Below, one piece after another: positions 288 to 18,907 of a stretch of 64,000 bases of DNA. Where the stretch lies: positions 1 to 64,000 of the forward strand of contig CAJXUY010000022.1 in the NCBI GenBank assembly GCA_913060665.1, written 5' to 3'. The position numbers and the translations under genes are program-made. The notes beneath the pieces are model-generated. The model made no database searches and was not told where the DNA came from. It was given only the letters and a program-made list of their open reading frames with translations. The stretch's first letter is position 1, and every line of letters starts with the position of its first letter. The stretch comes from an uncultured Oleiphilaceae bacterium. GTDB taxonomy: Bacteria > Pseudomonadota > Gammaproteobacteria > Pseudomonadales > Oleiphilaceae.

Positions 288-324
288 GTTCGTTTAGCTG
301 CATTCTCGCAGCGATTGCCCAACA
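220..324. repeat. long-spaced inverted repeat upstream of rtcB
   Basis: TGTTGGGC-TCGCTGC arms at 220-235 and GCAGCGA-GCCCAACA at 308-324 pair almost completely across about 72 bases. The outer boxes read GTTGGGC and GCCCAAC. They resemble integron attC core boxes but are in the wrong order for attC. No T-run follows, so it is not an ordinary terminator. Confidence 0.5.
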
Positions 325-1813: not shown

Positions 1814-1815
1814 TC

Positions 1816-2541: not shown

Positions 2542-2602
2542 CGTAGCCAAATTAGTAGATGGTTGGATTGGATAAACAGTTCGACCAAACAGGAGAAACA
2601 AT

Positions 2603-2770
2603 ATGAATTATTTCAAGGTGCCTTTAGGCATTTGCACGACACAAAAAATTCTAAAGGAATTGCCGACGTCCAGTTGGCAGTTCGACTTTATAAAAATATT
2701 GAAAAAGAATCGGGTTAATTATTATGAAACACGAAGACGTAAAAGAAATAATCTCGTGCTTAGGTGGTGA
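2603..2770 (+). CDS. possible small ORF, 55 aa, overlapping next gene
   Basis: ATG at 2603 is preceded by AGGAG (2591-2595) at good spacing, better than the signal in front of the next gene at 2724. The 55-residue product is basic, with RRRKR near its C-terminus and W as last residue, and matches nothing I know. It overlaps the following gene by 47 bases in another frame. It could be a translational-coupling leader, a true small protein, or chance. Confidence 0.3.
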   Translation: MNYFKVPLGICTTQKILKELPTSSWQFDFIKILKKNRVNYYETRRRKRNNLVLRW

Positions 2771-3680: not shown

Positions 3681-3710
3681 GGCCTTTATTATCCTATGAG
3701 TGGTGTCTGC

Positions 3711-3754
3711 AAGTTATGGCAGCCTAATAAAATTATTAGGATGCCATAACTTTT
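3711..3754. terminator. strong bidirectional terminator
   Basis: Near-perfect hairpin: AAGTTATGGCA then CCTAATAA, pairing with TTATTAGG then TGCCATAACTT, with a single mismatch position, followed by TTTT on the plus strand and preceded by AA on the minus side. It lies between the plus-strand gene ending at 3680 and the convergent helicase gene ending at 3986. Confidence 0.85.
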
Positions 3755-3985
3755 AGGTGGCTTTAACATATTGTTAATGAAGGGGAAAAAGTTGATTTTA
3801 ATTTCAGGCAACAAGTGAAAACACATAAAAGCTGCGATCCAAAATTACAATCATGGCTGTTTAAACACAATATACATAGTATTTAAAAAAACGGTCGTGG
3901 GTAAGACATGATGAGCATTACCTTGTCGGCTATTTTGCAAATAGCAGTGTAAATAGTGTGTTAGCTGTATATTGATTTAGTCTCC
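3755..3985. other. convergent intergenic region
   Basis: AT-rich spacer between the terminator and the helicase stop codon. No gene or clear signal was seen. Confidence 0.4.
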
Positions 3986-6658
3986 CTATTGCCACCTGTC
4001 CTGACGTTTTATTTCTCGTTTGAAAGTCGATGAAAAGGCTTTCATTCTAGCTTTGACCAGGTTTTTTCTGCCTTCAGGCGTGCGTGTATATATAAGCTCA
4101 GTTGGCCCAACATACTTGCACCACGATTTGAAAAACATTTGAGCGAGTTCTTTTTTTACACCTAGTTTGAGTGGGACTGCATGATAGTCATCACGCTTCA
4201 TTCCGAAAAGCTCTCCTTCGCGAACAACAATGTAGCGAGGGTTTTCGATGGGGGCGAGTATTTCGGCTAAACAGTCCGAGAACAGGGATGATTCGTAGAA
4301 GGTGCTGCCAGTTAAAGAAACATAAAAACTACCATCATGGCTTTCGACGATATTAACTTTCATGCGCCGAATTGAGGTTTCAATCAATCCTGCTTGGCAT
4401 AGTGACTCACATAACGCGAGACCGATTTGTTTTAATGACCCATCAACCGGTAAGTGCTTCATTAATATCCGTATGGCTGATATTGTCTGAGGTAGCTTGT
4501 AAATCATAGCGCCTATTATCGCGACTGACATAAGTAGAAATAAATTTGATGCTGACTTTGGTTGCGATTGCATGACCAGTGTTACGCCAAGACTGAGTGC
4601 TGCCCCAAGTTGAAGTAACAAATACTTCAATGTGTGTTTTAAGTGGTAGCTTCTTATGCTTGGGATAGTCGGTGTTTCTACTGAAGGGACTACTCTGGCA
4701 GACTCGTCCAAGGTTAGGGCTTTGTTCCATCGTTGCCCGATATCAGCGACTTTCTCATAACGTTTACGCATCATCTGGTTGTTTGCAAATACTGGGTTGC
4801 CAGGGTTCAGTTCTTTAATTACGTTAAATGCGGTGGCATTCATTCTTTCGAAACCACTTTCAATGGTAGGTTGTTTTTCTGACAAACCTACAAATGTTTC
4901 AAATCTGTTTCGTAAATCATTATAGTCACTCCAACCGGAGTAATGCGACTCGCTATCAATAGCTACTAGATGCCAAATCGAACTTATTTTTTCAGGCTTC
5001 TGTTTATCAATACGTATTGCTCTGCCACGCATCTGATTGGTTAGCATAAAAGAGCCAACCGAGCTGGCTAGCACTAAAGAGTTGATAGCGGGAGCATCCC
5101 AGCCTTCGCCTAATAGCGAACGGGTACCCACTAAAGTTTTGATCTTGCCTTGCATTAATAAACTAGTAAAAGCCGTTGTGAGTTGATTTAACGGTCCTGA
5201 AACTTTTTGGAACTGGCCTTCAGTACCCATAGGTTCAGTCTTAAATCTATGTTCATCAACCAGGGTGAGAAGACTATCCAACAGGCTAGTGTGAATAATG
5301 CTTAGTCTTCCTGTTAACAAAGCGATTTGATTCGAAATAACAGAAGAGGAGGTCAGACCTCTAAAAATAGGCCAAGCGCCTAGATTTAGCTCGCCTGTAT
5401 CAATACCAGAAACAAGTTCTTCATCGCGAATATAATCTGTTAAAACAACTTGGCGGAGCTCATTACCTCGTTGTTCGTGCTCAAGTTTATGAAGACTCAT
5501 GCAGGCGCTTACCTTTGAAGCGCTTTGTGATAACGAACGTCCCAGTCTTCTAGATCGCGCTAAGGAGAGTTCTCGTTTGTGAAGTAACTCAGATGATCTG
5601 AGTTGTTTCTTGAGCTGATCAATAGACTGCTTATGCGCATCACTATGCATAAACGTCTTGGAGAACAACACCGATTCTACGAGCACTTGCCACCAATGGC
5701 GACTTAGTTCAGGAATATCGTTTTCGGCAAGGTCTAGCGTAATAAGTAGGCCTTCAGGCAGTTGGAGCTTTTTTTCTTTGATGAAAGTTAAGATTGAAAT
5801 GGCAATCTCAGGTGCCTTTATAACATCTTGTTCAGCAAAATCCTGGTTTAACCAAGGATGGGCCAGAACAATATCCTCAAATTCTTGCTGTTTGATTAAG
5901 GTGTTACAGAGGGTAGAAACCCTATTATCGTATTCCTTGATCTTTTCTTTTTCGGTCGAGCTAACATCTACCGCCCAGATATAGTCTTGGTGGCCACATA
6001 ACGTACCAGCTTTAACCAATTCAGGAATCGAAATTTCTTCATCGATTGGGCCGCATAACTGCTCGTATCTATTCCATTCGTGCCCCTGAGAATCGTAAGG
6101 AGGAGTAGCCGTCAAAGAAACCAAAACTATATCAGGTAGTTCTTTGCATACTTTGTCTAAAGCTCGCCACCATTCTGCTCTTAAGTGATGCGCTTCGTCC
6201 AAAATAATGACTTTAATATTATTGGTCTTCAGGGTGGTGATAAATGAACTTAACTCATTATCACTAACACCTTCGTCGAGCTCCAATGCTTCGGCTTCAT
6301 CTTCTACTGCTGCTAATTCTTCACTGAGTTGAGAATGCAAAGCTTGGTAGGTGACTGAAGTCAGCATTTTAGGTTCATGGATTGACTTGCTAACCCATGG
6401 GAAGCTTGTAACATCATCTGAACAACAAAAGTCTGATAATCGATCTATCCACTGATCTCTAATTACACGAGTTGGAGATAAAACCAAAGTTGGTTTTCTA
6501 AGCCGTTTAAATACCTCTAGACCTAGGGTCGTTTTTCCTGCGCCGGGCGCGGCCACAATGTGTAAGCGTACATCGTCAAGGTGGTCATCAATCGCATCAA
6601 GAACACGTTGTTGGTATGGTCGCCAGCTGTAGCGGAATTTAAGTGTCTCAAACGGCAT
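3986..6658 (-). CDS. SF2 DEAH-type helicase with two membrane segments
   Basis: 890 residues. Walker A APGAGKTTLG at 37-46, a Q-motif-like RPYQQRVLDAI near 13-23, motif Ia LSPTRVIRDQW, motif II DEAH at 154-157, motif III SLTATPP, and motif VI QMRGRAIR near residue 540, so both RecA-like domains are complete. Between the helicase motifs is a long helical insert rich in K, E and R. Two hydrophobic stretches at roughly 680-735 (LLLQLGAALSLGVTLV and LFLLMSVAIIGAMIY) suggest a membrane anchor, which is unusual for an SF2 helicase. The C-terminal 150 residues match nothing I know. It is the last gene of the minus-strand operon headed by tetR, 31 bases after a small phosphatase gene. A role in DNA handling or phage defence is possible but unproven. 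Confidence 0.85.
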   Translation of the reverse strand: MPFETLKFRYSWRPYQQRVLDAIDDHLDDVRLHIVAAPGAGKTTLGLEVFKRLRKPTLVLSPTRVIRDQWIDRLSDFCCSDDVTSFPWVSKSIHEPKMLTSVTYQALHSQLSEELAAVEDEAEALELDEGVSDNELSSFITTLKTNNIKVIILDEAHHLRAEWWRALDKVCKELPDIVLVSLTATPPYDSQGHEWNRYEQLCGPIDEEISIPELVKAGTLCGHQDYIWAVDVSSTEKEKIKEYDNRVSTLCNTLIKQQEFEDIVLAHPWLNQDFAEQDVIKAPEIAISILTFIKEKKLQLPEGLLITLDLAENDIPELSRHWWQVLVESVLFSKTFMHSDAHKQSIDQLKKQLRSSELLHKRELSLARSRRLGRSLSQSASKVSACMSLHKLEHEQRGNELRQVVLTDYIRDEELVSGIDTGELNLGAWPIFRGLTSSSVISNQIALLTGRLSIIHTSLLDSLLTLVDEHRFKTEPMGTEGQFQKVSGPLNQLTTAFTSLLMQGKIKTLVGTRSLLGEGWDAPAINSLVLASSVGSFMLTNQMRGRAIRIDKQKPEKISSIWHLVAIDSESHYSGWSDYNDLRNRFETFVGLSEKQPTIESGFERMNATAFNVIKELNPGNPVFANNQMMRKRYEKVADIGQRWNKALTLDESARVVPSVETPTIPSIRSYHLKHTLKYLLLQLGAALSLGVTLVMQSQPKSASNLFLLMSVAIIGAMIYKLPQTISAIRILMKHLPVDGSLKQIGLALCESLCQAGLIETSIRRMKVNIVESHDGSFYVSLTGSTFYESSLFSDCLAEILAPIENPRYIVVREGELFGMKRDDYHAVPLKLGVKKELAQMFFKSWCKYVGPTELIYTRTPEGRKNLVKARMKAFSSTFKREIKRQDRWQ

Positions 6659-6689
6659 TATGTATATTTATTCCTTTAAAGTTTAATCG

Positions 6690-7016
6690 CTACAGGCCTA
6701 GTATAGAGCCGACGGAAGACTCTAATTCATCAATTAAGTCTGAATCCATATATTGGTATTCATCTGGAATATCCAGTACGTGTATCGTTTTGTGCGTAAG
6801 CATTCTAGAGAAGTCAGCTTTAAGTCTATTTTTATGTTTTTCTTCCATGACGAAGATTATGTCAGCCCAAGTAATATCCGTTGAACTCACCGTCTTTCGT
6901 GCCTTTGTATTCGTACCTGCTGACCTTACATTTAGGTCGGGGTGTTTACGCCAAATATTTTCAGCTGTTGGGCTACGCCATTGATTTTTACTGCAGATAA
7001 ACAGGATATTTCTCAT
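6690..7016 (-). CDS. small low-molecular-weight protein-tyrosine-phosphatase-like protein
   Basis: 108 residues, shorter than the usual 140-160 of the family. The N-terminal P-loop has the CX5RS signature (C8 to R14, ICSKNQWRSPTAE) but lacks the usual G-N-x-C arrangement within the loop. A DIPDEY segment at 82-87 may carry the general acid. It would dephosphorylate a protein or arsenate-like substrate in the cytoplasm. Start ATG overlaps the stop of the DoxX-like gene (ATGA), so translation is coupled. It is sandwiched between a membrane protein and the helicase in one operon. Its partner or substrate is unknown. Confidence 0.85.
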   Translation of the reverse strand: MRNILFICSKNQWRSPTAENIWRKHPDLNVRSAGTNTKARKTVSSTDITWADIIFVMEEKHKNRLKADFSRMLTHKTIHVLDIPDEYQYMDSDLIDELESSVGSILGL

Positions 7017-7390
7017 GCCTTTTTCTCGTTAATCGATGAGTAATAAACCCAAACCAGCACAGCGATCGGTAGGTTTTTAGTAACTGGACCGAATGGATGA
7101 AACCAATATGAGGCGTCAATACCGGTTAGCAAAATAGTGAATAAGGCGATCACAGATATTTGTATTTGATAACAGAGTTTTTCTTTAATGCCTGTAAGAA
7201 TCCAAATACCAATCATCATATCTGTTAGAGAGCCGCTAATTAGGCATAAATCTGCAAAGCCTCCGTCAACCCCACCGGTTTCTAAAATTTGGTATCCTAC
7301 TTCTGGTGCAAAGAAGAGGGAGGTTAAGCCGGTGAAGATCCATAAAAATGCCAGACTTAACTTTGCTGCTAATTTTTGTTTCTTAGTCAT
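7013..7390 (-). CDS. DoxX-like small membrane protein
   Basis: 125 residues with four hydrophobic helices and the LAFLWIFTGLTSLFF opening typical of the DoxX-like family. These are inner-membrane proteins of poorly defined function. It sits 9 bases after the DUF2269 gene and overlaps the phosphatase gene by 4 bases, in the tetR-led operon. DoxX-like, DUF2269 and saccharopine-dehydrogenase-like genes fit together as one membrane/redox unit; the phosphatase and helicase look like additions. Confidence 0.8.
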   Translation of the reverse strand: MTKKQKLAAKLSLAFLWIFTGLTSLFFAPEVGYQILETGGVDGGFADLCLISGSLTDMMIGIWILTGIKEKLCYQIQISVIALFTILLTGIDASYWFHPFGPVTKNLPIAVLVWVYYSSINEKKA

Positions 7391-7399
7391 TGAAGTCCT

Positions 7400-7873
7400 T
7401 TAAACCACGGAAAGCGGCTTAAATATCATAAGCCAAAATATAACGATGACCGAAGCAAACGCAGGTATACCAAGAGCCGTCCACAACTTCATTGTCGCCT
7501 TAAACGAATCACTTATTACACCTTCTTCTAAAGCCTGATCAGCAAAGTGCTTCAATCTGTATTGCAAGTAGATCACCGGCAACCAGCAAACGCCGATAAA
7601 AATAAATAGGCTAATCACAGCTAAAAACCAGGCAGAGCTATAGGAATAGTTGAGAATATTCACCAACATAATGCCTGTAACGAATTGGACAACCACAGCC
7701 GGAAAAGTAAATAGCCAGTCAGCTAGCACAACATGCTTTGTCGTTACGGCAATGGCTTGAATGTTGTTGGATTGGTTTGCCATGAACATGAAAAAGGCAA
7801 TACCTGTTCCTGTACCAGCTACTACAACAGCAGCCAATATGTGAATCATCTTGATAGTTAAATAGTAATCCAT
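7400..7873 (-). CDS. DUF2269-family integral membrane protein
   Basis: 157 residues, four predicted membrane helices, beginning MDYYLTIKMIHILAAVVVAG, with conserved histidine early in helix 1 as in the DUF2269 (predicted integral membrane) family. Function unknown. It begins 6 bases after the upstream reductase gene in the operon. Confidence 0.8.
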   Translation of the reverse strand: MDYYLTIKMIHILAAVVVAGTGTGIAFFMFMANQSNNIQAIAVTTKHVVLADWLFTFPAVVVQFVTGIMLVNILNYSYSSAWFLAVISLFIFIGVCWLPVIYLQYRLKHFADQALEEGVISDSFKATMKLWTALGIPAFASVIVIFWLMIFKPLSVV

Positions 7874-7879
7874 CTGCAG

Positions 7880-9025
7880 TTACCTAATTTCCTTTGGTTC
7901 ATAGCTTTCTTCCGTATGAAAGATTCCCCATTGGTTTGCATAATGATCAAACTCATCAAGGCTATACATTCCTTGGCAAGCCATCGCACCAGTTTCTTGT
8001 ATTGAGTCGTTGATTAGTTTTTTGGCTAGAATAACTGTTGAGATAATAGGGATATAAGGACCAACACCGTCTTCAGCGAATAGAGTCCAATCGATTTGAA
8101 GCGGCTTTTCATTTTTACCTATACCTTTCAATGTCACTTGCATGCCGCCGTTGTCAGTACCAAAAGGTAACAATAACTCGCTGCCTTTCACTATCCACTT
8201 GGTTAATGGGGCCCAATTCTTAATGAGTTTTATTTGCACAAATTTAGACATCAAGCTCATACCATGATGAAGTAGTGATACTTCAAGGCCTGCTTGGAAG
8301 TGTACGGTTTCCGCAGAAGGGTAACGATTTGGAAATAACTCTAAATCTGGGATATCGATGTTCGCTAACCAGCGAGAACCTATTGATCCACCAAAACCTC
8401 TTTTTCGTGATTCTCCCCAGCCAAATACGTTGATCCATTCTTTGTTTCTTAATACCTTGAAAGGATGGCCTGTATAAGAAAGGATCGCTCTGATCGTTGC
8501 TTCCCCACGTTCAGCTTTATTCCCTGGTGATATAGCAAAATCTATAGTTTTCAACTTCTCGAATTGAGGCAAATAGTGATCTACGATGGTTGAAGATAAG
8601 CCAGGTACTGAACTAGCACCGCTGACAACTAACACGTTATTTTCTTCAGCCGCGGAATTAAGTTGGTTTATATCACATACGAACCGCCGATCATCTGCCA
8701 AATCTATGTAGTGACTACCAGCATTTATACAAGCTTGCGGTACGGTGTAATCTTGTCCCTGAAAGGGGCCGCCAGTATGGATAACGAGGAAAGGCTGTAA
8801 ACAATTAAGCATCTGTTCGAAATCAGGACTCTGAATATCTAATTGAGCAGGCTTCACCTTAACCTTGGACTTTCGTTGCTTTAATTGAGCGCACAGTTCG
8901 GCAGCTTTATCGAGACTTCTTCCGGATATAAAAATAGTTACGTTTGGTATATAAAGCAGGTTCTCGGCAATTCGTTTACCGAAGTTTCCATAACCCCCAA
9001 GAATGATAATGTTTTTGTTTTCCAT
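7880..9025 (-). CDS. saccharopine dehydrogenase-like NAD(P)-binding protein
   Basis: 381 residues. The N-terminal Rossmann motif is IIILGGYGNFGKRIAENL (about residues 6-23), followed by an NAD-binding fold and a C-terminal domain as in saccharopine-dehydrogenase-like or trans-acting enoyl-reductase-like proteins. VHTGGPFQGQDY and SGASSVPGLSS are typical of this group. A soluble oxidoreductase of unknown substrate. It starts 4 bases after tetR, so it is regulated with it. Confidence 0.85.
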   Translation of the reverse strand: MENKNIIILGGYGNFGKRIAENLLYIPNVTIFISGRSLDKAAELCAQLKQRKSKVKVKPAQLDIQSPDFEQMLNCLQPFLVIHTGGPFQGQDYTVPQACINAGSHYIDLADDRRFVCDINQLNSAAEENNVLVVSGASSVPGLSSTIVDHYLPQFEKLKTIDFAISPGNKAERGEATIRAILSYTGHPFKVLRNKEWINVFGWGESRKRGFGGSIGSRWLANIDIPDLELFPNRYPSAETVHFQAGLEVSLLHHGMSLMSKFVQIKLIKNWAPLTKWIVKGSELLLPFGTDNGGMQVTLKGIGKNEKPLQIDWTLFAEDGVGPYIPIISTVILAKKLINDSIQETGAMACQGMYSLDEFDHYANQWGIFHTEESYEPKEIR

Positions 9026-9029
9026 AACG

Positions 9030-9626
9030 TTATTTATTGATACTCGCTTTTATAATTTCTAATACAGATTCCGCCGCATAATTCTTTGGCATGATTTCAT
9101 TTGCTGTCGCTGAAAGCTGAAATGCACCTTCCATAGCGGAGATAACGATTGCACTTAAATGGACAACTTCTTTGCTATTAACTGACTTATTTTGCCAAAC
9201 ATCTGCAACTAACTTCTTTAGAAGGTTTAACTGTTGCTCAATTAAGCCCTGATAGATCTCTTTTATTTCTGGCTGCCTGATAGATTCTCCGGCAATGACA
9301 ACCCAAGCAGAAACCACTTGAGGCAGCTCGGTTTCACCGGTTGCTAATCTGGCGTTAATGAAAACTGTGAGCTTATCCCAAGGGTCACTTACTTCAGTTT
9401 CCATTCTATCAAGGCGTTCTGTTGCCGAAGAGGCGATCCAATTCACTAGCCCTAGCAAGATTTCTTGTTTTGTCTTGAAATGATAATGAATTAAGCCTGG
9501 TGCTAAGCCTGCTTCTTTAGCAATCGCTTGAATAGATGCTTTTTCATAACCTCGCTCAGCCATCACTCGGAGTAATGCATTAATAATCTCTTGCTTTCGC
9601 TGCTCTGTATTGGATGGCCGGCCCAT
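9030..9626 (-). CDS. TetR-family regulator (BetI-like C-terminus)
   Basis: 198 residues with an N-terminal TetR HTH (about 27-53, ASIQAIAKEAGLAPGLIHYHF) and a C-terminal ligand-binding domain resembling BetI. It is the first gene of a six-gene minus-strand unit and faces a divergent plus-strand gene. Two copies of TTGGTT-N4-AACCAA lie in the shared promoter, one 20 bases upstream of its start, so autorepression is likely. Despite the BetI resemblance, the operator differs from the BetI-like box at 35064 and no choline gene is nearby. Confidence 0.92.
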   Translation of the reverse strand: MGRPSNTEQRKQEIINALLRVMAERGYEKASIQAIAKEAGLAPGLIHYHFKTKQEILLGLVNWIASSATERLDRMETEVSDPWDKLTVFINARLATGETELPQVVSAWVVIAGESIRQPEIKEIYQGLIEQQLNLLKKLVADVWQNKSVNSKEVVHLSAIVISAMEGAFQLSATANEIMPKNYAAESVLEIIKASINK

Positions 9627-9646
9627 GAAGGTATATCTCTTTAATT

Positions 9647-9674
9647 AGTAATTTGGTTATTTAACCAAATTACT
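9647..9674. promoter_or_regulatory. palindromic operator, copy 1 (TetR site)
   Basis: Perfect 12-base arms AGTAATTTGGTT and AACCAAATTACT around a 4-base centre. It lies just upstream of the tetR start and shares its core with copy 2. Confidence 0.8.
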
Positions 9675-9713
9675 TTGCATTTCACCAGTTATTTATATAG
9701 TGTGATTTATAAG

Positions 9714-9729
9714 TTGGTTGTATAACCAA
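9714..9729. promoter_or_regulatory. palindromic operator, copy 2 (TetR site)
   Basis: TTGGTT-GTAT-AACCAA, the same core and same 4-base spacer as copy 1. Centres are 61 bases apart, close to six helical turns. It is nearer the divergent gene at 9781. Confidence 0.7.
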
Positions 9730-9780
9730 TATATTGTTTGAAAATTATTACTACGAACACTTCAGAAAAAGGCGTTTCTT

Positions 9781-10155
9781 ATGAATAAAGAGTTCAATTT
9801 AGCAACAGGCAAGCATTGCAGGCTTTTAAGGATTCGTCGTGAGCTAATTCCAAATTATTACATCCTAGCATTCCCTGTAAATCAGGGGGAGCCAACTGCT
9901 AATGAAGTGACTGAAATGCTCAATCTCGGTACCTCTCATGCTCAAAACTTAGCGTTTGAAAATGTAGGTGATGCAGAAGCTTTTTCTATTTTGTATAGCG
10001 GATACAGTTCCCGACGTGAAAAGGGGTGGCACATCCATATTGTTCTTTTGGGTAGTCGTTGGAAGAAAGCATGGCTTTATATGATTCTGTCAGGAAAGAA
10101 CATAGTTCAAGCAATTGGACTGAGAAAGGATGACGCCCCGAGGATATGTTCATGA
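9781..10155 (+). CDS. unknown protein, possibly HIT-like
   Basis: 124 residues, not confidently recognised. The segment ILYSGYSSRREKGWHIHIVL (about 71-90) resembles the last strand and HxH part of HIT-fold nucleotide-binding proteins, but the full HxHxHxx motif is absent. LGSRWKKAWLYMILSGKN follows as a conserved-looking basic and aromatic stretch. It overlaps the HD gene by 10 bases, so the two are translationally coupled. It is transcribed from the TetR-controlled divergent region. The HIT assignment is a weak inference. Confidence 0.6.
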   Translation: MNKEFNLATGKHCRLLRIRRELIPNYYILAFPVNQGEPTANEVTEMLNLGTSHAQNLAFENVGDAEAFSILYSGYSSRREKGWHIHIVLLGSRWKKAWLYMILSGKNIVQAIGLRKDDAPRICS

Positions 10156-10763
10156 ACTATGAAAGATGGCTTCTCCTGATGAAAAATTTAGGATTTGGTA
10201 AAAATCAGGATACTTATGATGGTTTGGTTAAAGCGTATTCTGAACCACACCGTTATTATCATAATAAATCTCATATAGGCACTGTTCTGGCCTATCTCGA
10301 TAGCTTTAGTGCTCTAGCAGAGAGCAAATCTGAGATTGAGTTAGCCTTATGGTTTCATGATGCAATTTATAAAACTTTCTCATCATCGAATGAAGCCGAT
10401 AGTGCTGATTGGGCCTTTAGGTTTCTGGTCAAAAACCAAGCTCGAATTGAAACTCAAAAGACCGTTCACAGCCTCATTATGGCTACTTACCATTCCCATG
10501 TTGCTAGTGGTAATGATGAGATGCTCATAACAGATATAGATCTAGCAATACTGGGAAGTGGGGAAGAGAGCTATTCACGATTCAGCACCGCAGTGAGGCA
10601 AGAGTATAAATCAGTACCTGAGTTTATTTATAAGAGAAAAAGACGAGTAGTGCTGAAGGGGTTCTTAGATAGAGATCGTATTTACACTCATGATTTATTT
10701 CATAACGAGTTTGAGGTGCGTGCTCGAGAGAATATCTGTAACGAATTGAACCAATTAAGTTGA
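10146..10763 (+). CDS. HD-superfamily metal-dependent phosphohydrolase-like protein
   Basis: 205 residues. The HD signature is visible: H in YYHNKSHIGTVL (about 37-48), HD in LALWFHDAIYKTF (about 75), an H in TYHSHVASG, and D in ITDIDLAILG. This matches the conserved bacterial HD protein of about 200 residues (COG4339-type), probably acting on a nucleotide or phosphoester. Either ATG, 10146 or 10152, could be used; both overlap the previous gene. Confidence 0.85.
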   Translation: MFMNYERWLLLMKNLGFGKNQDTYDGLVKAYSEPHRYYHNKSHIGTVLAYLDSFSALAESKSEIELALWFHDAIYKTFSSSNEADSADWAFRFLVKNQARIETQKTVHSLIMATYHSHVASGNDEMLITDIDLAILGSGEESYSRFSTAVRQEYKSVPEFIYKRKRRVVLKGFLDRDRIYTHDLFHNEFEVRARENICNELNQLS

Positions 10764-11081
10764 GGTGACGCGTGAAACACCTTTGCCCAAAAAGAGTAGA
10801 AAACTTAGTGCAATTCAAATAAACCGTGTAATAAGCCTCTAATTGGATCCTTTCGAATAAGCTGGCTGACAAAACGCTATAAGCTCAATAATGATGAAAT
10901 AAAACTTGTAAATATCCCAAACTAGGATATTAATTAAATGTTTGCTGTACAAATTATAAACAATTAGAGCTCGCTTGTTAATAAGCCCCTATTGCTAACG
11001 TAACACGCAATTTTTTGAAAGTTTTAGAACTATTGCTTCTTGGTAGTTTGGTGTTTCACAGAAACCCAAAAGGTGAATTTG
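10764..11081. other. intergenic region upstream of tnsA with repeats
   Basis: AT-rich, no gene. It contains TAATAAGCCTCTAATTG at 10829-10845, TAATAAGCCCCTATTG at 10979-10994 and an inverted CAATTAGAG at 10961-10969. The left end of the Tn7-like element would be expected here, but the site motif found at its right end is not present. Confidence 0.45.
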
Positions 11082-11720
11082 ATGAAAATTCTAAAAAGCA
11101 AGAAAGTGATTACGTGCTCACCAGTGCACTCAATCACCCGCATTCCTTCAGAGAAAAATGGTGAGCGCATAGCGACCATGTCACGTAATGAGCGCAACGT
11201 AGGCTGGAAACTCGAAACGTTAGGAGCAGTGACTTGTTATAAGTCTCAACCGTTTACCTGTGAATTCGAGATGGATGGTAAGACACGTCGTTACACACCA
11301 GACTTCGAAGTTCATTTTAAGGATATAGCGAAGCCACTGGTAATCGAGGTTAAACCAGCAAAGTTCTTAGAAGATCTTTATCTACAGAATAAACTAAAAA
11401 TTGTGGCTCGTGACCTCCCTAAACTAGGTTACAACTTCATGATAATGACTGATGGTCAAATTCCTTCACAGACGGAATATTCCAATTTTCGTTTTTTGTA
11501 CCACCACCGCTCACGCTTGCCTTCGGAGGATGTGATCAAAGAGGTTTTGTATCTTGTTCAACAAGGAGTAAATCGCGCTTGGATGTTAGATGACTATATT
11601 CAGCGTTACGACAACGAGCAAAGTTCTGTCTATGCCATGATTGCTCATGGTTACCTGTTTGCTGATATCTCCCAACCAATAGATTACCAAACTCTAGTAT
11701 CAATCACGGAGGGTGGGTAA
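11082..11720 (+). CDS. tnsA: TnsA-like transposon endonuclease
   Basis: TnsA cuts the 5' strand at the transposon ends and works with TnsB. From the ATG at 11082 (AAGGTG seven bases before it; an upstream TTG at 11040 is less likely) the product is 212 residues. The restriction-enzyme-like active site is visible as E in RNERNVGWKLETL, D in YTPDFEVHF and the E-x-K of VIEVKP, followed by a C-terminal helical domain. It leads the tnsA-orf71-tnsB-tnsC operon; its stop codon overlaps the next start (TAATG). Having TnsA implies cut-and-paste movement rather than cointegrate formation. Confidence 0.92.
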   Translation: MKILKSKKVITCSPVHSITRIPSEKNGERIATMSRNERNVGWKLETLGAVTCYKSQPFTCEFEMDGKTRRYTPDFEVHFKDIAKPLVIEVKPAKFLEDLYLQNKLKIVARDLPKLGYNFMIMTDGQIPSQTEYSNFRFLYHHRSRLPSEDVIKEVLYLVQQGVNRAWMLDDYIQRYDNEQSSVYAMIAHGYLFADISQPIDYQTLVSITEGG

Positions 11721-11935
11721 TGTTTATATTTGCAGAGCCAGGCCAATTATATATTCGCAATGGCTTGAGTTGGATCGTCGACTCTATCAATGGAAATCTC
11801 GTTAAGTCTCGTGCTGTCGACTTTGATGTTCAGGATCTCGAAATTCTGGCGCAGTTTAATCGTGAGGTTATCGCAGGGTTAATCACGTTTCCTGAATTAG
11901 CAAACGAGGCAAGTGATTGTCAGGAGGGTAATTAA
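11720..11935 (+). CDS. 71-residue protein resembling the TnsB N-terminal domain
   Basis: It has a strong ribosome site (GGAGGG, 11708-11713) and shares one base with the tnsA stop. Compared by eye with the first 60 residues of the downstream TnsB, positions line up almost without gaps: G, Y, W-x-V, I, V, R, E, F, V, G, I, P, A are identical in order (about 14 of 54). This suggests a duplicated TnsB N-terminal domain made as a separate subunit, perhaps a regulator or end-binding accessory. I know no named Tn7 component of this kind. Similarity this low needs a structural test. Confidence 0.75.
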   Translation: MFIFAEPGQLYIRNGLSWIVDSINGNLVKSRAVDFDVQDLEILAQFNREVIAGLITFPELANEASDCQEGN

Positions 11936-11936
11936 T

Positions 11937-13934
11937 ATGGCCCAGGCTGTCTGTATTGCTAATATCGGTGCTGAATATGAAATTGATAAACGTCTTTGGA
12001 AAGTAACGCATATTAAAGATGATAAGGTCGTATTGCGTTGTTCAACCAAGTCTATTGAAGCGGTGGAGTATACTTACTTTGAATTCAGTGCTGCTGTATA
12101 TGAAGGGGAAATTAAAATCCCTAACTTCGCTGTAGATTCAATTCCTTTACCTGATTATCGCTACGCTGATCTGCCGCAGCATGTGAAGCAAAAGATCTAT
12201 CGTAAAAATGCATATGTTAAACAATATGCAGTTGATAAAAATTCGAACGCTATTTCCACTGTAGAATCGATTGCGTCTGTAGCTTCGAAACTGAAAGACG
12301 TTGGTCCGCCTTCCATCAGGTCTCTAGAACGCTGGTATGAACGGTGGCAACAATTTGAAGAACACTGGATGGCATTCATCCCCAAAAAGTATCTTGAGCA
12401 TGCCTCTACACGGGTTAACCCGATTGTTGAAGAAATAATGATCGAGGCGATTGAAAGTTTATATTTGGTCAGAAACTCCAAACATTCTCTCGAGGGTGTT
12501 TGCGAGGATATCGAAGATACATTGGCAAAGCCCGAGTATGCGCACTTAGAAGAAAACGTGCCTTCTAAATCTACCATTAAGCGTCGCCTAGATCAGAAGT
12601 ATGGCCGAATTGAGATAGTGCGTAGACGAGAAGGTGAAGAAGCAGCCAAAAGGCTTGAAGAGGTACTAGGCGTTCCTGAGAGACCCACAAGAATTCTACA
12701 GTGTGTTGAAATTGATGAGACGGTTCTTGATTGCTTTATTGTTGATGAGAATGGAGTCCCGGTAGGTAGACCGACATTAGTACTGATTGTCGATGTGTAC
12801 TCGAAAATGATTACAGGAGTTTATGTAACATTTCAGAGCCCATCTGCTGCGGTTGTTCTACAAGCTATAAAGATGTCAATTTTACCCAAAGAACCCGTTA
12901 TTGCTGGCATTGAAGATATTGTCGGTATGTGGCCTTGTTACGGAATACCTGAGGGTATTAGAACCGATAATATTCGACATTATCTCAGTGTCGCCTTCGG
13001 TGAAGCGTTGTTTGATTTACAAATTGAACAGGAGCAATCACGTGTAAGAAAGCCAAAGGGAAAGGCTAGTGTTGAACGGACCTTCCTAACGGTCAATACT
13101 GGTCTCTTAAATAGCTTGCCAGGGTATGTTGATTCAATCGCTGAAAGAATTATAGATGCAAAGTTGGACCCACAGAAAACAGCAGTATTAACATTAGATG
13201 AATTTAAGGAACACCTGTTTAGATGGATAGTGAATGAACAGAATTATCGTCAGTCAGAAAGGCTTGATAATCGGCGCCCTATAGATGTGTGGAACGAAAG
13301 TTTGGCGTTACATAAACCTCTAAATAACAGGTCACTTGAGTCGCTTGACGTTTCACTTTTGCCCACAGTGAAAGATCGAACAATACAGGCAACGAAGGGT
13401 ATTAGATTCAACAAAACACAGTACACAAATACTGAGTTAGCACGCTTAAGAGCGCGTCTACTTGGTCGAAAAGACTTCAAGAAAAATACTCAAAACCCAG
13501 TTGTTAAATTTCGTTGGAATCCAGATGACCTCGGTTATATTTGGGTGCAGGATCCCGAAACCCTTCAAAACATCCAGGTCTGGACTAATGATAAGACGTA
13601 CCATGGACTCAGTGAGCAGTTGTACAAGTGCGCTAAAGAGCTCAAAGCCAGGATTCTTAATCAGGACGGTAAGCATATTTCGGTAAAAGAGGCCGTCGTT
13701 AGAACTCGCAGAGAGCTAGCCGAGATGGTGGGCGGAAAGGCTAAGGTGGCTGATAAGAAGCGTCTTGCAGCTATAACCAGCAAACTTGATCAGAAAAAGC
13801 TTGATGAACCTTACGTCAAGAATGGTAGTGATTTCGCTAGTGATATTAATAGTGGAAAACACCTGCCCAATAATCCTGAGTCGCAGCAAACTGATTTGCC
13901 GCGTTTTAACCCTAGTCGTTATATGGAGGATTAA
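11937..13934 (+). CDS. tnsB: TnsB-like DDE transposase
   Basis: 665 residues from ATG 11937, which has AGGAGGG at 11922-11928; an in-frame start at 11913 has none. TnsB binds the transposon ends and performs 3' cleavage and strand transfer. The retroviral-integrase-type core is present: D in VEIDETVLDCF, LVLIVDVYSKMITGVY, the D of IRTDNIRHY and E of KGKASVERTFL, followed by a Mu-type C-terminal beta-barrel region and a lysine-rich tail likely to contact TnsC. It begins two bases after the 71-residue gene ends, so the pair is coupled. Confidence 0.95.
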   Translation: MAQAVCIANIGAEYEIDKRLWKVTHIKDDKVVLRCSTKSIEAVEYTYFEFSAAVYEGEIKIPNFAVDSIPLPDYRYADLPQHVKQKIYRKNAYVKQYAVDKNSNAISTVESIASVASKLKDVGPPSIRSLERWYERWQQFEEHWMAFIPKKYLEHASTRVNPIVEEIMIEAIESLYLVRNSKHSLEGVCEDIEDTLAKPEYAHLEENVPSKSTIKRRLDQKYGRIEIVRRREGEEAAKRLEEVLGVPERPTRILQCVEIDETVLDCFIVDENGVPVGRPTLVLIVDVYSKMITGVYVTFQSPSAAVVLQAIKMSILPKEPVIAGIEDIVGMWPCYGIPEGIRTDNIRHYLSVAFGEALFDLQIEQEQSRVRKPKGKASVERTFLTVNTGLLNSLPGYVDSIAERIIDAKLDPQKTAVLTLDEFKEHLFRWIVNEQNYRQSERLDNRRPIDVWNESLALHKPLNNRSLESLDVSLLPTVKDRTIQATKGIRFNKTQYTNTELARLRARLLGRKDFKKNTQNPVVKFRWNPDDLGYIWVQDPETLQNIQVWTNDKTYHGLSEQLYKCAKELKARILNQDGKHISVKEAVVRTRRELAEMVGGKAKVADKKRLAAITSKLDQKKLDEPYVKNGSDFASDINSGKHLPNNPESQQTDLPRFNPSRYMED

Positions 13935-13938
13935 GTCC

Positions 13939-14916
13939 ATGGCAAACATAGTTAAGAATGCATTTGTTGAATCGCTAGGGCTTACAAGCATCATTGATGA
14001 AATTGAATCCCGGCGTGGTGAGGGGCATAAGCGCTGCCCTGATAATCTCGTTGTTGTTGGACCCTCTGGGTCCGGCAAAACCACCTTAATCAAAGAATTA
14101 GTCGAGGTGCGTTTTCCACGCACTGTCTCAGAGAATAATGATAAGGATATTGTACCGCTGTTATCCGTATCATTTCAGAAAGATAAATCTACACTTGCGA
14201 TGGTTAATGACTTAATTACTCAGCTGGGGGACCCTGAAACAGACGAAAAGGATATCGATAATGCGTATGAAAGGCTTTGGCATTTACTCGAAGCGTGTCG
14301 CGTAGAGTTCATATGCTTTGATGAGTTCCACAACATTCGCAAAGGTAAAAGTGAGCAGGTTTCGTCAGCTGCCGAGAAATTTATTAAAGATATAAATAAT
14401 CACAGTGCAGTGATAATGATCGCGTTTGGTACAGGCGAAGTTCAAGAGTTAATTACTGCAGTTGATGAACTAGATACTCGATTTGATGAGTATCTCTACA
14501 TGCCTTCTTTTTCTGTGTTTGGTGGGAAACGTCCAGAGTTTGTTAAGTACTTACTCGATTTAAGTGAATACGCAGATATAGATAACCGCGAGTTTCTATA
14601 CGAAGGCGATATGCCCGAAAGACTCTACATAACAACAGAAGCAAACCCTCGAAGAATAGCCCGGTTAATTCACAGAGCGATTAAATTGGCTAAGGATGAT
14701 AACGGTCGTAGAGAGTTAAAACATAAAGACCTATACGAAGCAGCTCAAAAATTTGGCTCATCAGATAAACAAGCTCAGGTTTTCAGGCTTAGTAAAAAGA
14801 AATTCAACAACCTTCTTGATATGGGGGAGTTTGAAGCAGCTGATCTGACGAGAACACACCAGGTTATGTCGGAATTCTTTTCTAAGAAGAGAAATTTCTT
14901 AGGTTCATATTGCTGA
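13939..14916 (+). CDS. tnsC: TnsC-like AAA+ ATPase
   Basis: 325 residues from the ATG at 13939, supported by GGAGGA at 13925-13930, five bases after the tnsB stop. An upstream in-frame ATG (13786) lies inside tnsB and is unlikely. P-loop VVGPSGSGKTTL, Walker B EFICFDEFHN and a sensor-1 stretch VIMIAFGTGE identify the family. TnsC forms ATP-dependent filaments on target DNA and links TniQ/TnsD to TnsB. The C-terminus overlaps the antisense tniQ by 35 bases, and a terminator-like palindrome follows at 14943. Confidence 0.93.
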   Translation: MANIVKNAFVESLGLTSIIDEIESRRGEGHKRCPDNLVVVGPSGSGKTTLIKELVEVRFPRTVSENNDKDIVPLLSVSFQKDKSTLAMVNDLITQLGDPETDEKDIDNAYERLWHLLEACRVEFICFDEFHNIRKGKSEQVSSAAEKFIKDINNHSAVIMIAFGTGEVQELITAVDELDTRFDEYLYMPSFSVFGGKRPEFVKYLLDLSEYADIDNREFLYEGDMPERLYITTEANPRRIARLIHRAIKLAKDDNGRRELKHKDLYEAAQKFGSSDKQAQVFRLSKKKFNNLLDMGEFEAADLTRTHQVMSEFFSKKRNFLGSYC

Positions 14917-15550
14917 ATAAAGTGAATTGCTTCATAGGCCATAAGCTAGAAAGTTCAGTTGCGACTGAGCTATCTAGCTTTTGCCGGTGCAGAGGTAATG
15001 AGTCTATTAGATTTTGCGTCTCATTAACTCGTTTGTTTAAGAAGTTTGGGCTAGAGAAGATCTCGTCTAGTGCGATGATAACTTCGGAAATCATGTCTCT
15101 AGAATGAAGAGCAAGGGGCATTTGCGGGTGGTCATGAATTGCCAACTCGTAGATATGCTCATGGCAAAAAATATATGGCTCCAGGTACCACTGGTCTTTT
15201 ATTAGGTTTGGTGTCGCCTGCTGGCAAATTGGACAGATTCTTGGAGTGGATCGAATCAAAGATGAGTCAAATAGCAAACCGTGCCAGGATATTTTGTCCG
15301 AGCAAGCTTTTGTCGCTAGCTTTGATCGAATGGTCTTTTGTTCGATCTTAAATCGACGGTGGTAATTCTCAACAAAGTTCCCTGTCACGAAGGTCGCATG
15401 ATTAGCCGGTTTTAGTTGATGGGGATGCATCAACTGCAATCTATGCGAAACGCGCAGAGGAGAGACAAGGTTTGCCTCTGCAGAGCGAAGTAAATGTCCG
15501 TAAAGTGATTCGCTAGGTCCAATTGGTGGGCGTATTAAATAGGGTTTCAT
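14882..15550 (-). CDS. tniQ: short TniQ-like protein, antisense in the tns operon
   Basis: 222 residues from the ATG at 15550 (an upstream in-frame start at 15595 is possible). The N-terminal TniQ signature is clear: MKPYLIRPPIGPSESLYGHL, then a zinc-binding CPIC (C106, C109) with CHEH (C129, H132). The second zinc ribbon and the long C-terminal region of TnsD are missing. TniQ proteins bridge target recognition and TnsC. It is convergent with tnsC and divergent from the long tniQ. Its last 30 codons run through the palindrome at 14943-14980, so its end may have been reshaped. It could be a second targeting subunit, a regulator, or a truncated copy. Confidence 0.85.
   Translation of the reverse strand: MKPYLIRPPIGPSESLYGHLLRSAEANLVSPLRVSHRLQLMHPHQLKPANHATFVTGNFVENYHRRFKIEQKTIRSKLATKACSDKISWHGLLFDSSLIRSTPRICPICQQATPNLIKDQWYLEPYIFCHEHIYELAIHDHPQMPLALHSRDMISEVIIALDEIFSSPNFLNKRVNETQNLIDSLPLHRQKLDSSVATELSSLWPMKQFTLFSNMNLRNFSS
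14943..14980 (+). terminator. 38-base near-palindrome, terminator of tnsC
   Basis: AAGCTAGA arms with further paired AG, TCAGT and ACTGA blocks (32 of 38 positions symmetrical), ending CTAGCTTTT. It lies 27 bases after the tnsC stop and reads as a Rho-independent terminator. It is inside the coding sequence of the antisense tniQ, and both strands encode SSVATELSS there. Confidence 0.65.
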
Positions 15551-15627
15551 AACTCGTATCCTGTTGTCTAAAGTTTCAGGATACGGTTCTTTCATTAGTA
15601 AAAAGATCCAAATGGTTGCGAGTTATG
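15548..15627. promoter_or_regulatory. divergent tniQ-tniQ promoter region with nested inverted repeats
   Basis: The start codons of the two divergent tniQ genes share the same context: CATAACTCG at 15548-15556 and CGAGTTATG at 15619-15627. Between them CGTATCCTG (15555-15563) pairs perfectly with CAGGATACG (15577-15585). The symmetry suggests a shared operator or an RNA structure controlling both genes. Confidence 0.6.
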
Positions 15628-17919
15628 GCAACAAAACTACTGATTAGGCCACAGCCGTTTCCAGAAGAGTCAATACATAGTTGGTTGGCAAGAATTACGG
15701 AAAGCAATGCGTTCAGAAACCGATGGCGCATATTGGTACTCGCCAGAGCTATCGGTCTGAGTCGAAGGGCATCGGGTGCGCCGTTATTCGACGATGACCA
15801 ACTTGGTCGCATTTCGCGATTGTTGGGGTGTAGCCCTGAGTATATAAAAGGACTGGTTTGGGATGAGCTTCGTGGCTCTGACTCAGACAAAATTTTTTCT
15901 AGGCAATTCTTGTTTACGCGCCACGGTAAGATATGTCCAATGTGTTTAGGAGAGAAAGGTTATTGGGCAAAAAACTGGCAGCTCTTGCCAGTTACCTGTT
16001 GTATTGACCATGGTTTGAGGTTGGTGAGTTCCTGCAAATGTGGCGCGTCAATAGACACTTACCCATTCTCAGTGAATAAGTGTGCCTGTGGCAGACGTCT
16101 ATCTAAGTTAAGGAGAATCGACGCTACCTCTTATGAAATTAAAATTGTTTCCTTTCTTGATAGCGCCATGAGTGCTGAATCATCTTGTTTATTGCTTAAC
16201 AGGCTTTATGAGCTTCAGTTTTGTCTTTGGTATTGGTACCAGAGTGTAAGGAACCATGATGAACTGTTAATTCAGTCTTGGAATCAACGGCGAGTCGTTA
16301 GTGGTTGTAAGTATGTCGGTACATTAATCGAAAATGACATCATTAATATTGAGCCTCTAATGAGGCGGTATGTTGAATCTCAAGGGAGACGCGAAGTTAG
16401 ATTTCGTTCTATTCTGGGTGATTGTCATGATTATGTGAAGCGAATGGTTGAGTCTGGGTATACGGGGGATTTTTATAATCAGCTAACTGTATTTGAAGAG
16501 GGTGGATGGCATGGATCAAAGCTTCTGCGAAGGTCGAGATATGGCGAAAGCTCTTTGTTAAAAACCATCAAGGAAACTGCTCGAGATTATGAGAGCAAAC
16601 CAACTAATATTGAAAGGGTTGTTGAATACGAAAATTTAGATGTGGTTCAGAAGAACCAGCGAATCCGGTTGGTCGATGCAAGTGATGACGGTCTTCTGAC
16701 AGAAAGTGTTGGTTCATGGCTGTCACTTGATCAAGCAGCCAAGCTTACGGGTATATCTAAAAACTGGGTGCAGCAGCTTGTTGAGGCAAAACTGCTGGAT
16801 GGTAGGAAGCGGCTCCATCAAAGAGATTGGTTGATACAGAAGAAGTCTTGTTATTCGTTGAATGAAAAGCTCAAGATGGGAGCGTCTTCAGATGACATAA
16901 GATGTGTCCCTTTGAGAACTTTGCAGTTGTTTCCAGAGCAAGCTTTCTCCAAAGTTATATACAAGTGCCTAGAGGGAAGCATCGTTTATAAGTTTCACAG
17001 CAATGTCGGCCCACTAGGCAATCTTGTGATCGAGAGGCAATACCTTCAAGCGCTTGAATCACTTGAAAAAAGAGAGTTGCGTTCGGCGAAAGAAACTTCG
17101 GAATTCTTAAATATCAATCTGAATGCTCTCTATTATTTGATCAAGAAACGTTACATCACGTCAAGTTCCCGTTGTTGTAGAAATAGGAATGTATACGGGT
17201 TTTCTGACGTAGATATTGATAACTTTCGGGATAGATATTGCTTTCATATAGCGGCAAAAGAGTTTCTTTTATCTAGCGGTAGGGAAGACCTCATACCTTC
17301 TTTAAAAGCAGTCAATTCTAGATGTACACACCGCAGTAGAATCCGCATATATAAGTGGCAATATATCAAAACTCTGGTGAGTCGACTAAAGCAGCATAGC
17401 AAACCAAGCTTGTTGTATGGGCTGAACGCTGCAGCTCAATACGTGGGTGTAACGGTTAATAAATTGCGTTTATTAACGCGAGACGAATGGATCCTCCCAT
17501 ACACGCACCCGGGGCATCATTCAAAGAGTTTGCCTGGCATTCAATTTACAGTGGCCGATTTAAACCGACTAAAAGCACTGCTCGAAAATTACCCGGAAAT
17601 GATGCCCTTGAGAGCTGCATCTAGACAACTCGGCTACGACCGCTCCCATGTAAGAAAACAATTTGTCCTGTCTGGCTATCTGCGCTCGACATCTGTTCCT
17701 GAATGCCCAGGAGAAATTCTCTGTTTTAAGAAAGAAGTGTTTGCACTTAAGCGGATAATTGCGAGAACGGTGACAGGTCCTCAGTTAGCGTCATTGCTCG
17801 GTGTAACAAGAAACACCGTTTATAAATGGATGCGTGCAGGTAAATTGGTTCCAATAATTTCACCGACTGATGAAGGCTTTGGTAACTACCGTTATTCCAT
17901 CCCGAATAAAGGCCGATAG
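15625..17919 (+). CDS. tnsD: TniQ/TnsD-like target selector with five HTH-like modules
   Basis: 764 residues from ATG 15625 (a TTG at 15616 would add three). N-terminus: TniQ domain RPQPFPEESIHSWLARI, zinc ligands CPMC (104, 107), CCIDH (125-129), then CKC and CACG. The C-terminal half carries five excisionase/MerR-like HTH segments at about 366-392, 485-512, 597-624, 661-687 and 717-742, with patterns such as AAKLTGISKNWVQQLVEAKLL and LASLLGVTRNTVYKWMRAGKL. TnsD proteins bind a chromosomal attachment sequence and recruit TnsC; the HTH array would read the target. It is transcribed apart from tnsABC. Confidence 0.9.
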   Translation: MATKLLIRPQPFPEESIHSWLARITESNAFRNRWRILVLARAIGLSRRASGAPLFDDDQLGRISRLLGCSPEYIKGLVWDELRGSDSDKIFSRQFLFTRHGKICPMCLGEKGYWAKNWQLLPVTCCIDHGLRLVSSCKCGASIDTYPFSVNKCACGRRLSKLRRIDATSYEIKIVSFLDSAMSAESSCLLLNRLYELQFCLWYWYQSVRNHDELLIQSWNQRRVVSGCKYVGTLIENDIINIEPLMRRYVESQGRREVRFRSILGDCHDYVKRMVESGYTGDFYNQLTVFEEGGWHGSKLLRRSRYGESSLLKTIKETARDYESKPTNIERVVEYENLDVVQKNQRIRLVDASDDGLLTESVGSWLSLDQAAKLTGISKNWVQQLVEAKLLDGRKRLHQRDWLIQKKSCYSLNEKLKMGASSDDIRCVPLRTLQLFPEQAFSKVIYKCLEGSIVYKFHSNVGPLGNLVIERQYLQALESLEKRELRSAKETSEFLNINLNALYYLIKKRYITSSSRCCRNRNVYGFSDVDIDNFRDRYCFHIAAKEFLLSSGREDLIPSLKAVNSRCTHRSRIRIYKWQYIKTLVSRLKQHSKPSLLYGLNAAAQYVGVTVNKLRLLTRDEWILPYTHPGHHSKSLPGIQFTVADLNRLKALLENYPEMMPLRAASRQLGYDRSHVRKQFVLSGYLRSTSVPECPGEILCFKKEVFALKRIIARTVTGPQLASLLGVTRNTVYKWMRAGKLVPIISPTDEGFGNYRYSIPNKGR

Positions 17920-17971
17920 TGCCAAGTATTAATTTCAATCTAAGCGTATGCTTTACTTACAGGAGCTGAGT

Positions 17972-18532
17972 ATGGGTGTTTCAATTTATGTTGGGTTCTA
18001 TGCTTCATGTTTAAAATATGACCCGGATATTGCGGTAACCCTCGAACAACAATTCAAGGCAATGAATACGGTTCTGGTTGAGCAGGGAGTTTCTACGCAT
18101 ACTGAGCCTACAGCCATTGTAGATATGAAAAATCGAGCGGCTAGCAATGACTTTAGCTACGGCAAGATATTTCAGCTACGCCAACTCTACACAGACACAA
18201 TGGATGGTCATTCTTCTGAAAGTCATCTAGTTTGTCATTCTGATTTCGATGGCTTTTATTTGCCGGTTGAGTTTCATAATGTGAGCAACGACAAGCGAAT
18301 ACAGGGTACTTTTCTTGGCTCAAGCTACGAGCTGATGAAGGAATTAGTCTCACTGGCTCCTGAGCTTGGTATAAGTCTAAGAGATGGAATCCTATGTGAT
18401 GAGGAAGCTGCAGAAGTCAACGCTAGAGCATGGTCAAGCGATAGACATAGTGACGAGCTAATGGCGTGGATAGCTTTGTTTGAAGCGGCCAGATTGAGTA
18501 TTGAGCATAAATCTGCAATAGTCTTTCGCTAA
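17972..18532 (+). CDS. unknown protein, only cargo gene of the Tn7-like element
   Basis: 186 residues from ATG 17972, which has AGGAG at 17961-17965; an upstream in-frame start at 17948 is weaker. It begins MGVSIYVGFYASCLK and contains VCHSDFDGFYLPVEF near the middle. The composition is soluble, with no signal peptide or membrane helix. I do not recognise the family. It lies between the target-selector gene and the right end, a position where Tn7-like elements keep cargo or an accessory target factor. With no other cargo present, an accessory or immunity role is as likely as a defence role. Confidence 0.75.
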   Translation: MGVSIYVGFYASCLKYDPDIAVTLEQQFKAMNTVLVEQGVSTHTEPTAIVDMKNRAASNDFSYGKIFQLRQLYTDTMDGHSSESHLVCHSDFDGFYLPVEFHNVSNDKRIQGTFLGSSYELMKELVSLAPELGISLRDGILCDEEAAEVNARAWSSDRHSDELMAWIALFEAARLSIEHKSAIVFR

Positions 18533-18711
18533 ACACCTGCTAGTCTTTTGTAGACGGTTCGTATTGATCCGTGTATTTTTATTATCAGTAACATAGAATC
18601 CTTGCTTACTAGCAAATCGTATATCTGTTAAAAACTGTCTCAGATATTTTGCTCTCGAACAGGCTTAAAATGGAGTGCTTTGTATCCTGTTGATTTTAAA
18701 GGAAAATAAAA

Positions 18712-18842
18712 TGCGACATTTTGAGCGAAACAAATAGGATTTTACGACAAAATTAACAAAACACACGCGACAGCTCTAAGAAACGAAAACAACGCAATGC
18801 GGGTTGTAGAGCTGTTTTTACGACAACTTAAACGAAACGGCA
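18712..18842. repeat. right end of Tn7-like element with four TnsB-type sites
   Basis: On the plus strand the pattern TRCGACA-N7-CRAAAC occurs at 18712-18731, 18743-18762 and 18819-18838, with a variant (N6, AGAAAC) at 18766-18784. All point the same way, as TnsB sites do at one end. No such site occurs upstream of tnsA. The last site ends 70 bases before the thioesterase start. Confidence 0.75.
18770..18820 (+). terminator. hairpin with T-run inside the transposon end
   Basis: ACAGCTCTA (18770-18778) pairs exactly with TAGAGCTGT (18807-18815), with CAAC/GTTG pairing inside the loop and TTTTTA following. It could terminate transcription leaving the element. Confidence 0.5.
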
Positions 18843-18907
18843 TATGTGTTCTTCAGCTTGATGTATTTAGACTCAATGTCCTTGATACCTGTTTGCGGAA
18901 CTACAGA

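Follow-up and report, generated by a model that had tools for sequence, protein, structure and literature searches.

Dual TniQ Genes in a Tn7-Like Core

The window analyzed here is a stretch of 64,000 bp (contig CAJXUY010000022.1, or C22, positions 1–64,000) from the genome of an uncultured Oleiphilaceae bacterium (GCA_913060665.1; 4.39 Mb, 34 contigs), and it contains the core of a transposon that encodes two TniQ proteins (Table 1). Matches in Pfam to TnsA_N, Mu-transpos_C/rve, TniB, and two TniQ domains bear out the original prediction, made from the letters of the window, that tnsA, tnsB, tnsC, a short tniQ, and a long tniQ/tnsD form one unit; the joint occurrence of TnsA, TnsB, TnsC, and TniQ genes makes the window element a Tn7-like transposon. 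The starts of these five genes were picked by comparison with relatives and verified as open frames. With one short and one long (>400 aa, amino acids) TniQ, the window element falls under the definition of dual TniQ-TnsD loci (PMC10293859). Of the five TniQ matches in the host genome, two are those of the window, two form a further pair on contig C17, and one stands alone on C4. The C17 pair belongs to an element of the same layout (tnsABC, antisense short tniQ, long tniQ), and a third element of this layout lies on public contig MAAL01000055.1 of Gammaproteobacteria bacterium 42_54_T18 (G669).

The claim that no cas gene or clustered regularly interspaced short palindromic repeats (CRISPR) array accompanies the element also stands. 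Exact 16-mers repeated at 40–90 bp were absent from the window, from the loci of the C17 and G669 elements (L006 and L031), and from seven further element pieces; Rfam gave no match at the gathering score in window 10700–18900; and in the host genome Csy3 had no match and Cas1 a single one, on contig C5. There, unlinked to the transposon, the host has a complete type I-E operon with an array of 82 repeat copies (L116, G000:C5:52500-72000, 4014–18468). The window element is thus not a type I-F3 CRISPR-associated transposon (CAST), a class defined by element-borne Cascade genes and an array.

Two Nested Insertions at parE

Direct repeats at window 18711–18842, immediately left of a thioesterase gene, mark one end of the window element (Table 1); a weaker additional site at 18766 was seen by the first matrix only. 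Ends adjoining tnsA were searched for first and none was found. The right end maps to another contig, at C17:75702, where the sites are spaced 22/21 bp and TGTGT stands directly before the terminus. In G669, parE ends at C55:71957 and is followed by six bases and then by TATGCCGTTTCG, its three sites spaced at 22 and 21 bp; the other end, at C55:105457, has sites 31 and 76 bp apart, a spacing identical to that of the window left end, and a duplication TTTTC. The site matrix was built from the sites in the window and those at the right end of the G669 element, and with it the left end of the latter and the right end on C17 were afterwards located. A 24-base end pattern (≤2 mismatches) occurs at exactly two places in the host genome, the ends at 18844 and C17:75702, and a reversed control gave 0. 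The middle right-end site scores 13.5, within the background (up to 13.7), and its spacing agrees with that in G669. Several putative TnsB-type sites at both ends, together with a 5-bp duplication, are the end structure of a Tn7-like element.

From these ends, the window element would cover C17:75702–113759 plus window 1–18844, or 56.9 kb if C17 and C22 abut, as the end of C17 appears to adjoin the start of C22. The original prediction had given its span as 11082–18842. The right edge of that span is sound (2 bp from the left terminus at 18844), and the left edge is not an edge of the element at all: the span is the transposase core plus one end only, and because the right terminus is at C17:75702 the element is much longer, with window 1–10763 probably cargo.

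On C17 the order is parE, C17 element, window element. The parE gene ends at 42123; the C17 element occupies 42129–75695 (33,567 bp), with termini TGTCGGAC...GTCCGACA and a duplication TTGTG, and is followed by TTGTG, then T, then the right end of the window element. The junctions read as an insertion of the window element first, six bases past the parE stop and duplicating TGTGT, and of the C17 element second, five bases past the stop and duplicating TTGTG, in agreement with the junction bases. The identity of parE was confirmed by TIGR01055 in 8/8 proteins tested; seven exceeded the curated cut-off, and the eighth, which fell short of it, is a C-terminal piece. An insertion-site comparison, which had been proposed for relatives of the element, places all three family members (window, C17, G669) at parE, just past its 3′ end as in the parE-homing branch typified by Tn7017, the window element by way of the nested C17 junction. 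On sequence grounds both termini, their matching target duplications, the location of three elements at parE, and the nested order are taken as established, and the nested pair gives a base-by-base view of one site used twice. A 394-aa helix-turn-helix (HTH) gene beside tnsA in the C17 and G669 elements, considered as a possible target, was rejected: it lies inside both mapped elements, with parE at the edge. No empty site could be read from four genomes of the same genus, where the thioesterase flank is too heavily rearranged.

Relatives of the Element and Constraint on the Short TniQ

Searches for relatives with the same core and an antisense tniQ thus turned up two, C17 and G669. The window and G669 elements share 56% identity in TnsB, 44% in the long TniQ, and 44% in the short TniQ; the window and C17 elements share 31% in TnsB, 23% in the short TniQ, and 28–36% in BLAST pieces (31% over the alignment) in the long TniQ. 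In a draw of 369 genomes of the class, G669 not among them, the host genome alone matched a two-row short-TniQ model. A two-row long-TniQ model matched 11/390 genomes at the order level (E 1e-10), with only the host and G669 above 300 bits and the next at 97. A TnsB-alignment scan of genome contigs yielded 34 loci and this layout in G669 only; the scan is not exhaustive, because two degenerate peptide patterns were used and contig ends truncate several loci. Locus layouts are based on open reading frames (ORFs; ≥80, 90, or 60 aa) and home-made models, which very short TniQ-like proteins can escape. Three of the 34 loci (L052, L057, L059) have a different arrangement, in which a second long TniQ (567–586 aa) lies antisense after the first. 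Against plasmids, TnsB matched 168 records, with identities of 23.7–29.5% among the 30 matches listed; no relative turned up in two scans of viral contigs.

The window, C17, and G669 proteins form one clade (100/99) in a 21-row TnsB tree, and the Aeromonas I-F3 row pairs with G535 in another (99/98); the tree does not fix how these clades branch relative to one another. The phylogeny of both TniQs that had been called for (TniQ core, 26 rows, two Calothrix rows of 28 having been dropped beforehand) puts the three short TniQs in one group (96/91; the C17 protein carries a long-branch flag) and their three long counterparts in another (91/91, below the star threshold). Because both groups branch like TnsB, the pair was most likely present in the common ancestor of the three elements. 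Identity at codon positions 1/2/3 between window and G669 is 52/66/33% for the short TniQ, much like the 51/66/37% for the long one; it is 60/68/33% for TnsC and, for the short TniQ between window and C17, 35/53/32%. In the alignment the short TniQs carry a CxxC...CxxH set and lack the second C-x-C set of the long TniQs. Judged from these comparisons, the short TniQ is under protein-level constraint and is not a relic. A minimal TniQ has been kept through deep divergence in a bounded, CRISPR-free relative of the I-F3 CASTs, and the role of short, partnerless TniQs is therefore directly testable.

Targeting by the Two TniQ Proteins

The reading we prefer, at a probability of roughly 0.6, is that of a CRISPR-free Tn7-like transposon whose long TniQ homes to parE and whose short TniQ is an adaptor to a second kind of target. 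The clade would be related to the I-F3 CASTs but devoid of Cascade, with cut-and-paste movement expected from TnsA and TnsB, which would cut and join, and with TnsC coupling them to the selector. Because the window, C17, and G669 elements are all at parE, the long TniQ is probably the parE selector, which would recognize the end of parE and place the element just past its stop; this agrees with a published parE-targeting TniQ (PMC11406308). The short TniQ appears to be a conserved TniQ core that has a single zinc-ligand set and lacks any recognized DNA-binding extension, and its strand suggests separate transcription. It would most likely act as an adaptor, joining TnsC to the second kind of target by way of a selector that the cell or an incoming plasmid provides. 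Such a second route is plausible and fits the published logic of dual elements (PMC10293859).

Several observations weigh against this preferred reading. No second target was seen, since parE is the site of three out of three family members, a placement that the long TniQ could account for by itself. A comparison of 241 ORFs (≥60 aa; E 1e-5) from the three elements gave, beyond TnsABC and both TniQs, a single family shared by all, a 79-aa XRE regulator, which leaves the short TniQ with no obvious partner encoded in the element. Relatives of the short TniQ were absent from 72,556 plasmid records at E 0.01, and relatives of TnsB from phages at E 1e-20. As the AlphaFold models of both TniQs are of low confidence (mean pLDDT, predicted local distance difference test, 34 and 33), the lack of a DNA-binding extension in the short TniQ is read from length and Pfam only. 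The one hint of a second pathway comes from a different clade, in G430, whose element shares 92% DNA identity over 2.87 kb and the same terminus with the parE element of G465 and begins at a different site, inside an RNase_T exonuclease ORF (L096 1157–1495, junction 1491); this may be a second-pathway event, but one junction was seen and the TniQ (351 aa) is of another type.

The strongest competitor, still a good deal less probable, gives the short TniQ no second target and assigns it to parE homing, where it would be a cofactor, either capping or trimming TnsC or pairing with its long counterpart. All three elements at parE carrying both TniQs, and the 74-bp divergent region common to the two tniQ genes, would be expected of it; the short tniQ's own strand and promoter region suggest separate control instead, and most published dual elements have one TniQ per pathway (PMC11406308). 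Recruitment of the host type I-E Cascade in trans for RNA-guided insertion is highly improbable. The complete operon and 82-copy array on C5 are compatible with it, and among solved structures the short TniQ comes closest to the chain named TniQ in 8fcu (E = 0.91, not significant), an entry that we take to be a CAST Cascade complex. However, the I-E locus, with Cas1, Cas2, and Cas3, resembles an ordinary immune system, 79 extracted spacers gave only chance-like matches of 15–16 bases to the loci examined, and the presence of the system in the host is all that speaks for its use. There is similarly little to favor the idea that the C17 and C22 ends come from different elements and that the window element is a fragment: the ends are on two contigs whose join is unsequenced, yet they share the target duplication, the end pattern has two copies in the genome with one matching tns set, and the order on C17 agrees with the junction bases. 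Least credible is the alternative that the short TniQ arose as a copy of the long one and is now in decay, as its weak Pfam score (33.9 bits; cut-off 27) and lack of the second zinc motif and long extension might suggest; this is already disfavored by a frame open in three elements, a supported group, codon-position constraint, and retention of the first zinc ligands.

The original prediction had proposed a different, undescribed route for the short TniQ and had named a decayed copy without protein-level selection as an outcome that would refute it. The conservation and constraint of the protein pass that test and uphold part of the proposal; its novelty is weakened, dual loci and the idea of selectors in trans being published, and all insertions of the family are at parE. 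The boldest version, in which the short TniQ is a socket for a selector from outside the element, a protein or a guide complex that the host or an incoming plasmid provides in trans, perhaps even the host I-E Cascade, is doubtful, and if true it would constitute a second, undescribed targeting route.

Comparison With Known Systems

Dual TniQ-TnsD loci (998 in number; PMC10293859), including a branch "mostly lacking Cascade I-F" (PMC10293859), parE homing, and the idea that TniQs too short for target selection may recruit selectors in trans (PMC10293859) are in print (PMC10293859, PMC11406308, PMC8649781). Cascade-free dual elements and parE homing are hence already known, and the window element is a variant of them. 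It resembles Tn7017-type elements in its two TniQs, its parE site, and a branch mostly without Cascade (PMC10293859, PMC11406308), a likeness drawn from their description and not from the Tn7017 sequence, and it differs in having a 222-aa TniQ antisense between tnsC and the long tniQ. Neither an antisense short tniQ of this layout nor a nested parE pair was found in the text consulted (figures and supplements, where either could be in print, not covered).

Among type I-F3 CASTs (Tn6677; Aeromonas plasmid pS44-1, L107), Tn6677 supplies the closest solved TnsB and TnsC; the window element differs from this type in the lack of Cascade and in its separate TnsB clade. Its likeness to Tn7 (TnsD/TnsE) and Tn6022 (TniQ/TnsF) is that of the published two-pathway logic. 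No TnsE or TnsF model or neighbor was found among the window proteins scanned (remaining C17 cargo not covered), and in contrast to Tn6022, where TnsF is in an operon with the short TniQ, the short tniQ here is flanked by tnsC on one side and, divergently, by the long tniQ on the other.

Four parE-linked elements (window, C17, G669, G535) have two proteins above the Pfam TniQ cut-off. Others vary: G589 has a long TniQ and a 176-aa TniQ-like neighbor without a Pfam match; G569 has two TniQs about 19 kb apart, of 341 aa (Pfam below cut-off) and 497 aa, which may or may not belong to one element; and the partial stretch of G465 has one 347-aa TniQ, below the Pfam cut-off. HTH_17 matches the longer TniQ of the window, C17, G669, G535, G589 (below cut-off), and G569 elements, which favors the long TniQ as the probable parE selector. 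G589 and Acinetobacter plasmid NZ_OR492670 likewise place a short protein (172–180 aa) beside a TniQ of about 490 aa with a weak HTH_17 match, with no cas gene annotated or seen in the stretch, G589 being at parE. They differ from the window element in that the genes are co-oriented and the short proteins lack a Pfam match, being TniQ-like by eye and alignment only; these proteins form another group, whose union with the window group was not rejected (approximately unbiased test, p-AU 0.34).

Control Regions, Cargo, and Neighboring Genes

The TATCC-N7-GGATA palindrome before tnsA occupies an equivalent position in each of the three elements (window 10913, L006 6724, L031 8973). The block containing it may serve as promoter and operator and, as a guess, the palindrome could be bound by the shared XRE regulator, whose gene lies next to the right end in each element. 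The inverted repeat in the tniQ gap is clear in two of the three elements, C17 having a different one in the same place and G669 a partial one.

Table 1. Features of the window element (window coordinates).
Feature	Position	Strand	Remarks
Probable cargo between right end and tnsA	1..10763	.	Pfam; between both mapped ends
Promoter-like block before tnsA	10906..10933	+	TTGTAA, 16 bp, TATTAA; palindrome TATCC-N7-GGATA at 10913–10929
TnsA, 212 aa	11082..11720	+	PF08722; 63% identity to G669 TnsA
71-aa ORF between tnsA and tnsB	11720..11935	+	No Pfam match; G669 counterpart 59% identical over 56 aa
TnsB transposase, 665 aa	11937..13934	+	Pfam; nearest solved chain Tn6677 TnsB, E = 3.6e-46
TnsC, TniB-type AAA, 325 aa	13939..14916	+	PF05621; nearest solved chain Tn6677 TnsC, E = 1.3e-19
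Short TniQ, 222 aa	14882..15550, ORF open to 15595	-	PF06527, E = 6e-8; convergent with tnsC
Inverted repeat CGTATCCTG...CAGGATACG	15555..15585	.	In 74-bp divergent gap between tniQ genes
Long TniQ/TnsD-like, 764 aa	15625..17919	+	PF06527, E = 1.7e-17; HTH_17 domains PF12728, E = 6.3e-20; relatives likewise
194-aa ORF between long TniQ and left end	17948..18532	+	No family match
Transposon left end	18711..18844	-	Three TnsB-type sites, starts 18711, 18742, 18818; terminus CGAAACGGCATA ends at 18844
5-bp target-site duplication TGTGT	18845..18849	.	Equals the 5 bp preceding the right end at C17:75702

Genes in the probable cargo region encode RtcB, an RF-1-domain protein, a ResIII/DEAD helicase, a low-molecular-weight phosphatase, DoxX-like, DUF2269, and saccharopine-dehydrogenase-like proteins, and TetR, besides ORFs without a Pfam match; the RtcB RNA ligase gene adjoins that of the RF-1-domain protein (window 587–2541), and both are probably transposon cargo. 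In the C17 and G669 elements, a WYL regulator and the 394-aa HTH gene (L006 4133–6356, L031 6749–8962) lie beside HsdM-type methylase genes, just before tnsA, and are 66% identical in DNA over 2.1 kb; by this comparison the module appears to be cargo that the two elements share, even though identity between their TnsA proteins is only 28%. Exonuclease-like genes are present in both tandem elements (L101 2304–2774, minus strand; L006 13152–13658, plus strand; 57% identical), the former matching the PADLOC model DEDDh. Elsewhere in the host genome, a third Tn7-like set (L007, G000:C4:128000-147000) has one 504-aa TniQ and an HsdM-like N6 methylase gene nearby, and adjoins a 289-aa ORF matching part of gamma-glutamyltranspeptidase.

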